The notes under the pieces are model-generated. The model saw nothing but the letters and a program-made list of their open reading frames with translations, did not search any database and had not been told where the DNA came from. From Acidobacteriota bacterium (lineage in GTDB: Bacteria; Acidobacteriota; Thermoanaerobaculia; Thermoanaerobaculales; Sulfomarinibacteraceae), in contig JAJDNH010000166.1 in NCBI GenBank assembly GCA_022340775.1, positions 1 through 60,532 of the forward strand: a stretch of 60,532 nucleotides of DNA, written 5' to 3'. Both the position numbers and the translations under genes were made by a program. Within the stretch, counting starts at the first letter, position 1, and each line of letters starts with the position of its first letter. This document shows positions 1 to 56,844 of the stretch, piece after piece.

Positions 1-71
1 GTCGCGCGGGGGTTCCGTATCACTCCTATGAGGGCTTCCCAGTGCTTCGGCTCCTCAAGCTGGGGGTGGAG

Positions 72-435
72 ATGAAGAGGAAACACCTGTTTGTTTTCTA
101 CTGCTCGCTGCTCGTGCCCATGAGTGTCCTAGCCCACATCATTCACTCGCAATCTACTGCGACCGGCGATACGCCAGCCACCGCCGTGCTCTTCGCGTCT
201 CGGTGTCCTCAACATACCGTCAAGTATGCCTGCGGCACCTCGATGCTCAGAACCCAGCGCTGACAAGCGTCTCGCCGGTCTCGCTACGATCGCTCATGAA
301 TAATGCGGGCCAGCCGGCATCGGAGCGGGGCGCGCCACCGGCCTGCCTGCGCTCGGCGTGCTTCTCGGCATAGCCATCGGTATTGAGGTCTCCTACCTTC
401 TGTTGCGCTTCACCTCCCCCGGCGACACCCCGTAG
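72..435 (+). pseudogene. Small two-helix membrane protein gene split by a MITE-like insertion
   Basis: An ATG at 72, after a purine-rich GGGGGTGGAG, opens a signal-like hydrophobic N-terminus (MKRKHLFVFYC...) that runs into the repeat at 131. After the repeat, a second hydrophobic stretch (GVLLGIAIGIEV...) in another frame ends at TAG 433-435. Removing exactly 131..311 (181 bp) joins CT to AGCC and gives one continuous 60-residue frame with two hydrophobic segments and a natural stop. Seen: both halves and the arithmetic of the join. Inferred: this was one gene that the repeat entered. No family is recognised. The present frame reads through the repeat and stops at 263, so any product today would be chimeric. 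Confidence 0.45.
131..311 (-). repeat. MITE-like element, copy 1 (181 bp)
   Basis: Full-length copy in reverse orientation relative to the copies at 41068 and 54538. Its ends are imperfect inverted repeats (AGCCCACATCATTCACT at the left; the complement of GGCCCGCATTATTCATG at the right). It carries the shared core ending in CGATCGTAGCGAG (read on the minus strand) and a central hairpin at 196..245. The tetranucleotide AGCC lies at 131-134 and again at 312-315. One of these is inside the inverted repeat, so a target duplication cannot be claimed. There is no ORF of transposase size, so any movement would need help from elsewhere. Confidence 0.8.
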
Positions 436-21825: not shown

Positions 21826-21851
21826 GCCGCGAGCGTAGCACTCTAAACCCC

Positions 21852-21918
21852 GGCCCGGATCACCCGCCCGCGATCTGCCGGCCAATCTCGCTGCGATCGC
21901 TCTTGTATCATCCAGGCT
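21852..21918 (-). repeat. MITE-like element, 67-bp deletion derivative
   Basis: Carries both ends of the family (GGCCCGGATCACCCGCC at left; TATCATCCAGGCT at right) and the CTCGCTGCGATCGCTC core next to the right end, but lacks the central part with the hairpin. It lies 26 bp upstream of the phospholipase-like start and 82 bp upstream of the nitrilase start, inside a divergent intergenic region. Confidence 0.65.
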
Positions 21919-22000
21919 AAGAGTGGGTTGGGAATCAACCCGGGTGCCCGCGCCTTGGAAGCTGAGGAAACCATCCCAGGCCGCGAGCAAGGAGCGCGTC

Positions 22001-40933: not shown

Positions 40934-41067
40934 GTCGCCGAATGATATACCAACGGACGGGAACGGGGGAACCGGCCCGACCAAACCTCCCTGGGCGACC
41001 TTCGCTCGAGAGAAACGAGCCGAAGCAACGCCAGACCTCCAAGCGGAGCAACAGCTCGTCCGAGTTG

Positions 41068-41249
41068 AGTCCGGGTCGTCCATGAGCGATCGTAGCGAGA
41101 CCGGCGAGGCGTCTGTCAGCGCAGGGTTCTGAGCGTCGAGCTGCCGGAGGCATACCTGGAAGGTATGTTGAGGACAGCGAGACGAGAAGAACACGGCGAT
41201 GGCTGGCGTATCGCTGGTCGCAGTAGATCGCGAGTGAATGATCCGGGCT
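41068..41249 (+). repeat. MITE-like element, copy 2 (182 bp)
   Basis: Full-length copy. The 5' end AGTCCGGGTCGTCC and the complement of the 3' end GAATGATCCGGGCT form imperfect terminal inverted repeats. Central hairpin at 41134..41184. It fills most of the 314-bp gap between dacB (start 40933) and the DprE1-like gene (stop 41248). The terminal CT of the element and the next base A form CTA, the complement of that gene's TAG stop. Confidence 0.82.
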
Positions 41250-42678
41250 AGGGAAGGAGCAAGCGGTCGGCGAGGGCAGAACGCAGGAGGCGCCCGGGAT
41301 CGGTGCGCTCCTTGATGGCGGCGAAGCGCTCCAGCTGCCCATCGCGGAAGGTGGCTCGGTACAGCTCGCCGGGCAGGGCTGCGTCCTTGGCCGGATAGAA
41401 CCGGCCGCCGGCCTCGACCACAGGCTCAGCAAGATCGGCGACCAGCCGCCACAGGCGGTCGCGGTTCGAGGCCGTGACCGGGAAATCGAGCGCCAGCGAG
41501 AATCCGTCGACGGCGTGCGTCAGCAGGAAGGGGTCGGGGCGGTGCCGCTTGAGCACAGCCAGGAACGAGGGCAGCCCGGCCCGGCGGCACAGCTCGAGCT
41601 GGCGCGCGAACACGCCCTCGGCCTCGGCCACCGGCACGAACGACTGGTGCTGGATGAGGCCCCCCGGGAGGTACACTCGCTCCCAGTTCGGCACGTAGTC
41701 GAGCAGGAACGAGAACTCGGCCAGCGTCTGGCGGTACCGCTTGTCGTTGCCGATCGTGCTCCCGAGTCGAAACTTGACTGCGTTGATGAGGCGCATCCCC
41801 GGCCGGTTTGTGAGGGGCTTGAGGAACCTCCAGAGCAGCGCCTTCGGGACCACCCCTGCCAGCCTCGCCGGCAGGTCCTGCGCCTCGGCCCGCAGGCTTT
41901 CCTGGGCGGCCGGGTCCTCATCTGCCTTGACGTGGTTGGCGAAGTGGAGCAGCCCGCGACCGCTGCGCCCGCCGCTGGCGAAGGCATCGATCCAGCCGAC
42001 CACGTACTCCCACCGATTCTTCGCGTCGTCGGCCAACCGCAGCATCGTGGCCAGGTCCTGGGCCGCAACCGCATGCACCTCGAGGCGGCCGGAGTGGACC
42101 CGCTTGAGCCGAACTCGGGCGCCGACGATGACCCCCAGCTGGCCGAAACCGCCGATGACGGCGTGGAAAAGCTCCCCGTCGGTCTCGGGCGTCACCGTCC
42201 GCAGTTCGCCGGACGGTAGCAGCATCGTGAGCTCCAGGCAGTGCTCCCCGAGTGTGCCGCGAGTCCAGTTGTTCTTGCCGTGAACGTTCATCGCCAGACC
42301 GCCACCGAGAGTCGGCGTCATGGTGCCGGTGACGACCTCTGGCCACCAGCCATCCGCGAGGACCGAGCGCCACAGGTCGTGGAAGGTCACGCCGGGCTCG
42401 ACTTGGGCGACCCCGTTCGAGGCATCCCAGCCGAGGATACGGTTCATCTCTGAAAGGTCGAGGACGACAGCTTCCGCGAGCAGCGCAGCATCGCCGTAGC
42501 TGCGGCCCGCCCCGCGCAGCACCACCGGCACGCCGCGGCTGCGGGCAAGCTCCAGCACCTCGCGTATCTGGCCGACGTTCGTCGGGCGGTAGACATAGCC
42601 GGCGGCGCCGGCCGCTCTGCCCCAACCCTCGACCCATTCGACCTGCCGGCCCGGTAGCGCGTCGCGCATTCGGCTCAT
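41248..42678 (-). CDS. FAD-linked oxidase of the DprE1 type
   Basis: 476 aa. VEGWGR, LRGAGRSYGDAAL (FAD binding), NVHGKNNWTRGTLGEH with a His at 133, IQHQSFVPV, then DGFSLALDFPV and GGRFYPAKDAALPG line up with mycobacterial DprE1, which oxidises polyprenylphosphoryl-ribose at C2'. The Lys of AKD and the HGKN His are conserved; the Cys targeted by benzothiazinones (GWNICVDF in DprE1) is Ala here. The start at 42678 overlaps the SDR stop (ATGA). With the adjacent DprE2-like SDR it would make polyprenylphosphoryl-arabinose. Comparison is from memory of the M. tuberculosis sequence. The stop lies on the end of a repeat. Confidence 0.82.
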   Translation of the reverse strand: MSRMRDALPGRQVEWVEGWGRAAGAAGYVYRPTNVGQIREVLELARSRGVPVVLRGAGRSYGDAALLAEAVVLDLSEMNRILGWDASNGVAQVEPGVTFHDLWRSVLADGWWPEVVTGTMTPTLGGGLAMNVHGKNNWTRGTLGEHCLELTMLLPSGELRTVTPETDGELFHAVIGGFGQLGVIVGARVRLKRVHSGRLEVHAVAAQDLATMLRLADDAKNRWEYVVGWIDAFASGGRSGRGLLHFANHVKADEDPAAQESLRAEAQDLPARLAGVVPKALLWRFLKPLTNRPGMRLINAVKFRLGSTIGNDKRYRQTLAEFSFLLDYVPNWERVYLPGGLIQHQSFVPVAEAEGVFARQLELCRRAGLPSFLAVLKRHRPDPFLLTHAVDGFSLALDFPVTASNRDRLWRLVADLAEPVVEAGGRFYPAKDAALPGELYRATFRDGQLERFAAIKERTDPGRLLRSALADRLLLP

Positions 42679-43427
42679 ACCTTCAGGTACTTGAAGATGA
42701 ACGAGGGGATCGAGCGGACGACCAGGCTCACCAGGCGCCAACGGGCCGGGACGTAAGCGGTCGAGACACCCCGTCCGGCCTTCCTGAGGATGATCGCCGC
42801 GGCGCGGTCGGCGGACACCACCATCGGCAGGTTCTTGAAGTCCGCCACCATCGGCGTGTCCACGAACCCGGGCTTGACCGTAACGACCTTGACACCGCGG
42901 CGGCCAACCCGGTTGCGCAGTGCTTCGAGGTAGGTGTGCAGCGCCGCTTTCGAGGTGTTGTAAGCGGGCGCGCCCGAACGCCCCCGGTCCCCGGCCACCG
43001 AGCCGATGCCCACGATCGTCCCCTGCTGCAGCCGCCAGAACCGCTCGGCGGTCGGGTTGAGCCAGGCCATCGCACCAAGCAGGTTGACCTCGATCATGTC
43101 GACGTCCTTGTCCGTGCTGTACTCGGTGAACGAAACCGGGTGGCCGACGCCGGACGAGTAGATCACGAGGTCGAGCCCGCCAAGCGCGCGGGCGATCTCC
43201 TGCAGCAGCACCGGGACCTCGTCGCGGTGGCAAACGTCGTGAGCGAAGGTCAGGGCCCGCTCCTCGCCCGCGGCCCGGTTGATGTCGCCCGCGATCTCGG
43301 CCAGCCGCTCGCCGCGCCGCGCGACCAGCGCGACCCGCGTCCCCTCGGAGGCGAGGTGGCGCGCGAGCGCCTCACCGATGCCCGACGAGGCGCCGATGAC
43401 GAGCGCGTGGGCGAACCGTCGGGTCAC
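42675..43427 (-). CDS. SDR of the DprE2 type
   Basis: 250 aa. Cofactor motif GASSGIG, catalytic Y-N-T-S-K, and the membrane-proximal ending WRLVSLVVRSIPSFIFKYLKV, which matches the end of DprE2 (RHIPRSIFRRL). DprE2 reduces the keto intermediate made by DprE1, so the two together epimerise ribose to arabinose on polyprenyl phosphate. GTG 43427 has GGAGG ten bases upstream; the longer frame from 43517 has no RBS. Overlap of four bases with the oxidase gene supports a working pair. DprE2 versus other membrane SDRs is a probable, not certain, call. Confidence 0.82.
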   Translation of the reverse strand: MTRRFAHALVIGASSGIGEALARHLASEGTRVALVARRGERLAEIAGDINRAAGEERALTFAHDVCHRDEVPVLLQEIARALGGLDLVIYSSGVGHPVSFTEYSTDKDVDMIEVNLLGAMAWLNPTAERFWRLQQGTIVGIGSVAGDRGRSGAPAYNTSKAALHTYLEALRNRVGRRGVKVVTVKPGFVDTPMVADFKNLPMVVSADRAAAIILRKAGRGVSTAYVPARWRLVSLVVRSIPSFIFKYLKV

Positions 43428-46100: not shown

Positions 46101-46195
46101 CAGATCGCAGAGGTCCAGCCGCCGGAACCGGGCAAACAGGATCCCCTCACCAGATGCGGTCCCGCGGTGGGGCGGGGGTGGGGCGGAAGGAGGCG
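46101..46195 (+). repeat. Second interspersed repeat, copy 1
   Basis: Shares CAGATC..CAG.GGTCC..GCC, then TCCCCTCACCA and CGGTCCCGCGGTGGGGCGGGG with 54392..54475, in the same orientation. It lies about 100 bp from a MITE-like copy, as the other does (about 60 bp). No inverted ends or coding sequence seen. Confidence 0.6.
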
Positions 46196-46296
46196 AGCGG
46201 AGCGGCCCCTCGGGACCGGCACGACGGACCGAGGCTAGCCTCGAGGACCGACTGACGGTTCCCGAGGAGTGCGGCCGCAGGCCGCGGATCTGCCTG

Positions 46297-46405
46297 AGCC
46301 CGAGTCCTCCTGTCGTCACTCACTGCGAGCGGCGGCATGCCACCTAGTGCCGTGCCTTTCGCATCTCACGGGTCTCGCTACGATAGCCCGCGGACAATCC
46401 GGGTC
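46297..46405 (-). repeat. MITE-like element, 109-bp deletion derivative
   Basis: Matches copy 1 from its left end (AGCCCGAGTCCTCC...ACTGCGAGCGGCG...GCCGTGC) and at its right end (GGTCTCGCTACGATAGC...AATCCGGGTC). The central hairpin is missing. In the full copy the lost segment lies between two CGTCTC repeats, so recombination between them would give this form. Confidence 0.65.
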
Positions 46406-46425
46406 AGCTGATTGGAGCGACGGCG

Positions 46426-54360: not shown

Positions 54361-54714
54361 CCCGCGTTGGCCCCCTCGAGGGATGCAGCCGCAGATCACA
54401 GGTCCGCCATACCCCGGTCCCCTCACCAAGGACGGTCCCGCGGTGGGGCGGGGATGGGACTGAAGGCGGCAAACGGCCACCCCGCCGCGGGCCAGGAAAC
54501 CAAGAAATCTCAAAGACTAGAGTCCGGAGAATCTTCGAGCCCGGGTTATCCGGGCGCGATCGTAGCGAGAGCGGCGAGACGCTTGTCAGGGCTGGGATCT
54601 GAGCGTCGAGCTGCCGGAGGCATACTCCCTGTATGTTGAGGACAGCGAGACGCAAAGAGCACGGCCCTGGCTGGCGTTTCGTCGCTCGCAGTAGTTCGGA
54701 ACGGATGAGCCGGG
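54361..54714. other. Repeat-filled interval between convergent genes
   Basis: Contains the second interspersed repeat (54392..54475) and MITE-like copy 3 (54538..54716). No gene seen. Confidence 0.6.
54392..54475 (+). repeat. Second interspersed repeat, copy 2
   Basis: Same motif as 46101..46195: AGATCACAGGTCCGCC, CCCCTCACCA and CGGTCCCGCGGTGGGGCGGGG. About 60 bp before MITE-like copy 3. Confidence 0.6.
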
Positions 54715-54716
54715 CT
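54538..54716 (+). repeat. MITE-like element, copy 3 (179 bp)
   Basis: Full-length copy: AGCCCGGGTTATCCG at the 5' end and CGGATGAGCCGGGCT at the 3' end are 15-bp imperfect inverted repeats (13 of 15 match). Central hairpin at 54604..54652. The 3' CT plus the next A is the complement of the TAG stop of the gene at 54715. Confidence 0.82.
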
Positions 54717-55794
54717 AAACGAGGTACTCGCCGTCCTTGATGATCTCGATGCTGCGACCGTCCGCGTGCAGGATCGCCGCACGTCGCACCTGCACGGGGT
54801 TGCCCTTGGCGTAGACGATGTCCTGATGGACGACCGTCTCCGGCGACCGGAAGTCGGCGACTCCGGTCACCCCGCCGAGGTGGTCGGAACGGCCGAACGC
54901 CCAGTGGAAACCGGCCTTCTCGTCCTCGAGCACGTTGCCGGTAACGGCCGCGCGCTCGTTGACGCCGAACGCGACCTCGGCGATGTTGGCCCGCGTCGGA
55001 TCCTCACTGAACATCTCGGCGTAACGATCTGCCACCGATCCCTCGCCCTCGACCATCTGGACACGGTTGGCGCTGACGTGGAAGAGGATGGTCTGCCCCT
55101 CCTCGATCACCGGGATCACGCCTGCCGTCCAAGAAGGATCACCCTCCAGCTCGCCCTCGTACGGAACCTCGAAGGTCTCGCCGGAGGGGAGATTGATGAT
55201 GCGGTCGCCCTCCTTGAAACGCGGCAGGAAGCCATCATCGACCTCTGCCACGCGGTGGCGAAGGTCGAACCAACAGCGGTGACCGGTGGAAAACTCGACA
55301 TCGCACAGGCTCGCTCCGCGCATCGCCTCCGCGATCTCCTGGCACCGGCGGGCGACCTCGGCGTAGTTGGCGGCCAGCGCGGATTCCTCCATCCGTTTGA
55401 GCACTCCGGGCATCGATGCGGCCCTGAAGTCCTCCTTCTTCTCGGCCATGATCGACAGCGGAGCGGTGGCCGAGTACTCGGTCATCGCGATCACCAGGGT
55501 CGAGGCCACCAGGGTCGGCAGCAGCTCGACCTCGGCGCCCTCCAGCCACCCGACAGCGGGCAGATCGGCGTTGTTGGCCCCGGTGGCCGGAAAGCTGAGC
55601 ATCGGGTTAACCGTAAAGGCGCGCTCGTGGGCGAGGCGCGCCATCGCCTCCCGCCACTCCTCGGCCATCTGCCGCCGTTCACGCCACTCGGCGTTATCGG
55701 AGATCCCGTCGTGAGGAAGGTCCACAGCTACCGTGACCACCTCGTCAGGCTGTGGGTCGAAGACGTCGACCAGAAGCTTCTCGAGATTGAACAT
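54715..55794 (-). CDS. M29-type aminopeptidase (thermophilic metalloprotease family)
   Basis: 359 aa. Layout fits M29 peptidases (AmpS/aminopeptidase T): MFNLEKLLVDVFDPQPDEVVTVAVDLP, helical middle, then a metal-binding C-terminal half with SGETFEVPYEGEL, ANIAEVAFGVNERA, KAGFHWAFGRSDHLGG and the late HQDIVY. Conserved Glu, His and Asp ligands appear present. Cytoplasmic, removes N-terminal residues. ATG 55794 has GGAGGG five bases upstream; the longer frame to 56490 overlaps the divergent gene. The TAG stop lies on the end of MITE-like copy 3. Confidence 0.82.
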   Translation of the reverse strand: MFNLEKLLVDVFDPQPDEVVTVAVDLPHDGISDNAEWRERRQMAEEWREAMARLAHERAFTVNPMLSFPATGANNADLPAVGWLEGAEVELLPTLVASTLVIAMTEYSATAPLSIMAEKKEDFRAASMPGVLKRMEESALAANYAEVARRCQEIAEAMRGASLCDVEFSTGHRCWFDLRHRVAEVDDGFLPRFKEGDRIINLPSGETFEVPYEGELEGDPSWTAGVIPVIEEGQTILFHVSANRVQMVEGEGSVADRYAEMFSEDPTRANIAEVAFGVNERAAVTGNVLEDEKAGFHWAFGRSDHLGGVTGVADFRSPETVVHQDIVYAKGNPVQVRRAAILHADGRSIEIIKDGEYLV

Positions 55795-55884
55795 CCAGCC
55801 CTCCAGCTGATTCAATCCGGGCACCTCGCCGTGCCGCGGGGTGCCAATTGTACTCCCGCCGTCGGTTCGCGCTATTCTCCCGGC

Positions 55885-56844
55885 ATGATGAGCGACGACT
55901 CCGCCGCCAACCTCACCGCCGCCGTGGTCGGCACCGGGCATCTCGGCCGCCATCACGTGCGGATTCTGGCCGGCATGGCCGGCATCGACTTCCTCGGCGC
56001 GTTCGACGCCGATGCCGCCCGGCTGCGCGAGATCGCGGCCGAGCATCGGGTGACGGCTCTGGCCGATCTCAACGCCGCGGCAGGGGCCGACATCGTGGTC
56101 GTGGCGACGCCCACCGTCACCCATCGCGAGGTCGCCGGCCGGCTCCTCAGCCGCGGGTGCCACGTTCTGGTGGAGAAACCGATCGCTGCTTCGGTCACCG
56201 AGGCCCGCGAGCTGGTCGAGCTCGCACGCCGCGAAAACCGCGTTTTGGCCGTGGGCCACGTGGAGTACCACAACCCAGCGGTTCAGGCCGCGCTCGGTCT
56301 CGCGGGCGGCGTCCGCTACCTGGAGGCGCAGAGGCTGTCCCCGTTCACCGCACGCTCCGTCGACGTCGACGTCCTGCTCGATCTGATGATTCACGACATC
56401 CAGATCACCCTTGCAGTCGCGGCCGAGGAGCCGTCCGAGATCCGTGCGGTCGGCGTCCCCGTGCTCACCGACAAGGTCGACCTCTGTCACGCGTGGATCG
56501 AGTTCCCGTGCGGTTTGGTAGCCAACCTCACCGCCAGCCGGGTGTCGGCGGAGAGGGTGCGCAAGCTGCGTCTGTTCGCCCGCGACAGCTACTTCTCGGT
56601 CGACTACGCGGAGCAGTCCGTGAGCGCCGCGCAGCTCCTGCGCTCAGAGACCGGCACGCAGATCGCGCCGCGCCCGGTCGAAGTGTCACCGAGAGAACCG
56701 CTGGCCGCCGAGCTGGTCGCCTTCGTGGCACGCTGCCGGGGCGAGGCGGCCCCGATCGTCGACGGCGAGACCGGCACCAGCGCCCTCGCCGCCGCGATCC
56801 GCATCCGCGAGCAGGTCGAGCATAGGCAGCTCCCCCCCCGCTGA
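55885..56844 (+). CDS. Gfo/Idh/MocA-family oxidoreductase
   Basis: 319 aa. Rossmann start AAVVGTGHLGRHHVRIL, then VVVATPTVTHREVAGRLLSRGCHVLVEKPIAA with the conserved EKP Lys, and HVEYHNPAV and DLMIHDIQI in the C-terminal part. GTGHLGRHH resembles GnnA-type UDP-GlcNAc 3-dehydrogenases of lipid A amino-sugar synthesis, so a nucleotide-sugar substrate is likely. Two ATGs in tandem at 55885. Divergent from the M29 gene (90 bp). Confidence 0.88.
   Translation: MMSDDSAANLTAAVVGTGHLGRHHVRILAGMAGIDFLGAFDADAARLREIAAEHRVTALADLNAAAGADIVVVATPTVTHREVAGRLLSRGCHVLVEKPIAASVTEARELVELARRENRVLAVGHVEYHNPAVQAALGLAGGVRYLEAQRLSPFTARSVDVDVLLDLMIHDIQITLAVAAEEPSEIRAVGVPVLTDKVDLCHAWIEFPCGLVANLTASRVSAERVRKLRLFARDSYFSVDYAEQSVSAAQLLRSETGTQIAPRPVEVSPREPLAAELVAFVARCRGEAAPIVDGETGTSALAAAIRIREQVEHRQLPPR

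Follow-up and report, generated by a model that had tools for sequence, protein, structure and literature searches.

A palindromic, TA-targeting mini-transposon of the Thermoanaerobaculales and its probable insertion into a membrane-protein frame

The repeat unit of pneumococcus (RUP), 107 bp long, is a proposed MITE mobilised by IS630-Spn1 (PMC2229807), and IS630-type transposons insert at TA, with CTAG as the preferred site (PMC2170065, citing Tenzen and Ohtsubo 1991). ERIC, also called IRU, is a 127 bp enterobacterial repeat (PMC2229807, PMC2759123), and Rickettsia palindromic elements (RPEs) can sit in frame inside genes (PMC2229807). We searched the literature for a repeat of this type already known from Thermoanaerobaculia and found nothing relevant. 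Here we describe a palindromic element of about 180 nt in an Acidobacteriota genome, starting from a copy near the beginning of the window (the whole stretch of 60,532 nt that was analysed, which is contig C241 of the assembly). We consider it probable that the element is a non-autonomous, TA-targeting MITE that at this locus splits an orphan gene or the 3' end of a gene. The family is new; MITEs themselves are already known.

The preliminary description of the locus had treated the piece between two hydrophobic half-frames as a copy of a repeat, and this is borne out. The genome (3.83 Mb, 251 contigs) gives 47 BLAST matches to the element at 77-100% identity, a few of them being fragments of longer copies or opposite-strand matches to the palindrome, and our covariance model, R1, matches exactly 130-312 with 201.7 bits, against 70.3 bits on the opposite strand. 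The same description had placed the join at an AGCC flanking the copy on both sides. This AGCC is not a target duplication: the left AGCC (131-134) belongs half to the flank and half to the end of the element, whose GCCC terminus is conserved in nearly all copies. It is TA that is duplicated instead. Aligned copies from this genome and its relatives have the ends TA/GCCCG...CGGGC/TA, and most of the 60 relative copies carry the duplicated TA at both ends, within YTAR or CTAG. The features of the locus and the other copies in the window are collected in Table 1.

Table 1. Features of the interrupted locus and further copies of the element in the window.
Feature	Coordinates	Strand	Remarks
Left coding-like frame	3..131	+	open to contig start; contains ATG 72 and hydrophobic segment LFVFYCSLLVPMSVL
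Left TA of target site (empty site CTAG)	130..131	+	covariance-model match starts at 130; TA/GCCC boundary in most copies
Element core, 179 nt, GCCC to GGGC	132..310	+	rod-like palindrome; imperfect terminal inverted repeats of ~45 nt
Premature TGA inside element	261..263	+	terminates the interrupted left frame (ORF 42..263)
Right target duplicate, decayed to CA	311..312	+	TA in most copies
Right coding-like piece	313..435	+	40 codons and TAG; strong membrane helix; no plausible start codon of its own
Weak copy remnant	21851..21919	+	covariance model 27.2 bits, E 6.9e-5
Second element copy	41067..41250	-	covariance model; its TA+G is the TAG stop of gene 41248-43233(-)
Internally deleted, decayed copy	46296..46406	+	covariance model 38.1 bits, E 2.5e-7
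Third element copy	54537..54717	-	covariance model; its TA+G is the TAG stop of gene 54715-56490(-)

The consensus folds into a single bulged, rod-like hairpin with compensatory changes in 28 of 41 pairs, and the length of the element is nearly fixed, at 177-181 nt across the bacterial family. A conserved protein encoded on the reverse strand of the element was ruled out, since the central loop varies by 2 nt between copies and the stem positions co-vary. No part of the window matches an Rfam family above the gathering score. Some longer copies are present in the genome (L032, L033, L036, L040 and L041, on G000 contigs C111, C70, C135, C69 and C204, respectively), about 460 nt in length with one of about 370 nt; they have an additional internal domain between CTCAGA and CTGACA that is well conserved among the 460-nt copies and may represent either a nested element or the ancestral state. 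Two further copies (L034 and L039, on G000 contigs C48 and C184) are interrupted by a different insertion, in both cases at one internal position immediately ahead of GCCTGCGG. The window also contains a 59-nt direct repeat (46142-46200 and 54418-54476, 83% identical) that is apparently separate from the element.

Beyond this genome, the covariance model finds the element in all 20 of the searched genomes of the family (Thermoanaerobaculales, Acidobacteriota), most of which have at least 12 matches with 26 candidates scored per genome. Elsewhere in the class it is sporadic, and it is present in 41 of 100 genomes overall; the related genomes include Thermoanaerobaculales bacterium Prado016 and Candidatus Sulfomarinibacter. 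MAGs labelled Bryobacterales and Gammaproteobacteria contain full-length relatives as well. Full-length or partial relatives in MAGs labelled Proteobacteria or Gammaproteobacteria are found at L207, L212, L215 and L222, and the matches under these labels include a short core match in the chromosome-level assembly OY282353.1; such copies may reflect horizontal spread or binning errors.

In size, terminal inverted repeats and dispersal, this noncoding, palindromic, multicopy element of about 180 nt agrees with MITEs, as it does in having a TA target-site duplication and orthologous sites that lack the element. The YTAR/CTAG context of the duplicated TA, seen in copies from this genome and from relatives alike, agrees with the target of IS630/Tc1-mariner transposons, and we infer that the element is moved by an IS630/Tc1-mariner-type transposase acting in trans. 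A DDE_3 search of the element's own genome found two IS630-type genes (L109 and L110; G000 contigs C135 and C237), neither with recognisable matching ends, and for want of matching terminal repeats these two genes were set aside as candidate partners.

Most copies lie at stop codons or between genes. In the genome analysed, 20 copies have a left flank that is strongly coding, and 18 of these are in stop phase, such that TA and the first base of the element form a stop codon (in one of the 18, L013, that codon has decayed). In relatives, 12 of the 22 coding flanks on the left and 12 of the 16 on the right are in stop phase. The two window genes that end in a copy are conserved, and their orthologues have no element there: those of the gene at 41248-43233 terminate at the same point or a few residues away from it, those of the gene at 54715-56490 terminate at the same residue or one residue beyond, and the stop codons used are TGA, TAG or TAA. 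We see no need for a special stop-codon targeting mechanism, given that 3 of the 8 CTAG sites and 4 of the 20 YTAR sites outside gene interiors in this window are already at stop codons. A CTAG/YTAR target combined with selection against gene disruption predicts that roughly 20-38% of copies will be at stops, and the observed share is not far above this; the target preference and selection against gene disruption may thus be sufficient to explain the pattern. Some copies (among L014, L038, L004, L027, L032 and L035) lie directly downstream of sequences resembling tRNA 3' ends (CCA) or hairpin-plus-T terminators.

As the preliminary description had claimed, excision of 131..311 (181 nt) joins 72..130 to 312..435 in one 60-codon frame that runs from ATG 72 to TAG 435; excision of 132..312 yields the identical sequence. 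The joined frame reads MKRKHLFVFYCSLLVPMSVL/AGIGAGRATGLPALGVLLGIAIGIEVSYLLLRFTSPGDTP, and the join (..GTC CTA GCC GGC..) falls on the normal CTAG/TA target of the element, with the right 40 codons in phase with the left frame. Codon-usage log-odds, trained on the long ORFs of the window, are +16.1 for the 43 codons of the left frame from contig base 3, of which +6.0 comes from the 20 codons starting at ATG 72, and +16.4 for the 40 codons of the right piece. The other two forward frames of the left flank score -24 and -25, and across both flanks the remaining forward frames score about -20 to -25; the frame that runs into the element is not coding-like, at -4.1. The joined 60 codons score 22.4, where true gene windows have a mean of 17.9 and 8% of wrong-frame open windows reach the score of the joined frame. 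The start of the proposed 60-residue membrane protein at ATG 72, and hence its length, is not established: the contig begins at window base 1, and ahead of ATG 72 the left frame still lacks a stop and keeps its coding-like codon usage, so that the true start may be upstream, past the contig edge.

That the element can enter genes with precision is a genuine behaviour of the family, as is gene interruption. Of the 96 copies examined, two have flanks that both show coding signal in one and the same phase: the copy at this locus and a copy in a related genome (L173 in genome G011). The joined protein at L173, a long GT87-like membrane protein with a weak GT87 match in which the copy lies close to the C-terminal end, aligns without gaps to uninterrupted relatives in two genomes that lack the element there (58% over 204 aa in G005; 52% over 201 aa in G015); these alignments demonstrate precise TA insertion into coding sequence by the element family. 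The net insertion at L173 is 180 nt, such that the frame stays open (504 aa) and gains 60 residues, unlike the net 181 nt at our locus, which shifts the frame into the premature stop.

The preliminary description had proposed a search of related genomes for an intact homologue of the joined protein, and here its prediction was not borne out in any collection searched. Neither the 60-aa nor the 83-aa product has a homologue in sets of 100, 148 or 396 genomes (relatives and a sample of the phylum), in Pfam, NCBIfam or 84,980 species genomes, or among viral contigs, phages and plasmids, and the 23 residues upstream of ATG 72 have none either. On inspection, the top weak matches of the joined product proved to be hydrophobic chance matches, such as one to a DMT-type transporter. 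Synteny gives no support, since the downstream gene at 606-1880 is not conserved and is nearly unique, with one weak match. Orphan genes are common, and the genomes searched include none of the same genus, so that the absence of homologues weakens the case for a split gene and does not refute it.

We nonetheless take interruption of a gene to be the likeliest reading of this locus, on the basis of codon usage and of the demonstrated analogue at L173; disruption is likely here, if unproven. The element would have entered a CTAG in the 3' portion of a gene whose product was a membrane protein, either small or hydrophobic at its C-terminus. The net gain of 181 nt would shift the frame, so that translation continued through 43 codons of the element and stopped at TGA 263, and the final 40 codons, which include the second helix, would be cut off and left with no usable start of their own. 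The insertion into a membrane-protein frame that had first been proposed thus remains the best reading of the codon phase, the CTAG join and L173, set against a negative homologue search. The main alternative at the level of the locus is that the element is real and the joined frame a product of chance, the copy having landed in a noncoding stretch or at the end of a gene, ahead of the gene at 606-1880. That most copies lie at stop codons or between genes fits this view, as does the lack of any homologue of the joined product. Frame length is weak evidence, since 16% of shuffled flanks give an ATG frame of 60 aa or more that spans the junction, and long chance frames are common in the GC-rich DNA of this window. 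Agreement in phase between the two flanks has, by itself, a one-in-three chance. However, chance does not readily account for two flanks that both carry codon-usage signal in a single phase, found in only those two of the 96 copies, or for the hydrophobicity of the right half (KD19 2.18), which is matched by about 1.6e-4 of open shuffles. The coding left frame also has no stop at the junction, in contrast to 18 of the 20 coding left flanks in this genome. We therefore regard a chance frame as rather unlikely.

If a gene is split, it may be longer than the joined frame. The frame could be the 3' end of a longer membrane-protein gene that begins past the contig edge, a variant of the preferred reading with which it shares part of our confidence, and which we consider possible though short of probable: from base 3 of a contig that starts at base 1 of the window, the left frame has no stop and scores as coding, and the analogous copy in G011 lies close to the C-terminal end of its long GT87-like protein, whereas MKRKHLF... 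looks like a real start, closely preceded by G-rich sequence, and the 23 residues before it have no homologue. A different view of the element itself is that it is chiefly a conserved RNA structure, which spread in some other way and is retained for a role in the 3' regions of mRNAs. The compensatory changes, the nearly fixed length and the sense orientation of the 18 stop-phase copies in this genome speak for such an RNA, but the terminal repeats co-vary as expected of transposon ends, both orientations occur at stop codons in relatives (12 left, 12 right), orthologous loci differ in its presence, and L173 lies inside a gene. The share of copies at stops is, moreover, close to what target choice and selection predict. 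We consider the structured-RNA view very unlikely, and favour a mini-transposon.

The element adds a very widespread, structured mini-transposon family to a class for which the literature searched describes none, and it suggests a route to persistence by landing on TAG or TAA stops and rebuilding the stop, with rare landings inside genes. A stronger proposal is that a preferentially stop-occupying, class-wide palindromic element, structurally constrained and with a net length of often exactly 60 codons, would rebuild stops with its own first G and occasionally add an in-frame 60-residue peptide, and so act as an RPE-like supply of novel tails and inserts for proteins in Acidobacteriota, tolerated at stop codons; we think this unlikely.

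Among the described systems, RUP resembles the element in being short, palindromic and high-copy with a TA target, and differs in sequence, length and phylum, and in that no partner IS with matching ends was found for the element described here. With ERIC/IRU it shares a long imperfect palindrome that is mostly intergenic and at times intragenic with frames fused in frame; the two are unrelated by description, and our element is about 180 nt, with many copies on TAG/TAA stops. RPEs are likewise palindromic and found inside genes in frame, as at L173, where exactly 60 codons are added to a GT87-like gene, whereas the copy at our locus, with its net 181 nt, is frame-shifting and most copies lie at gene ends or between genes. 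Lastly, the element has the TA duplication of IS630/Tc1-mariner transposons and the CTAG preference of IS630, but, unlike them, it encodes no transposase.
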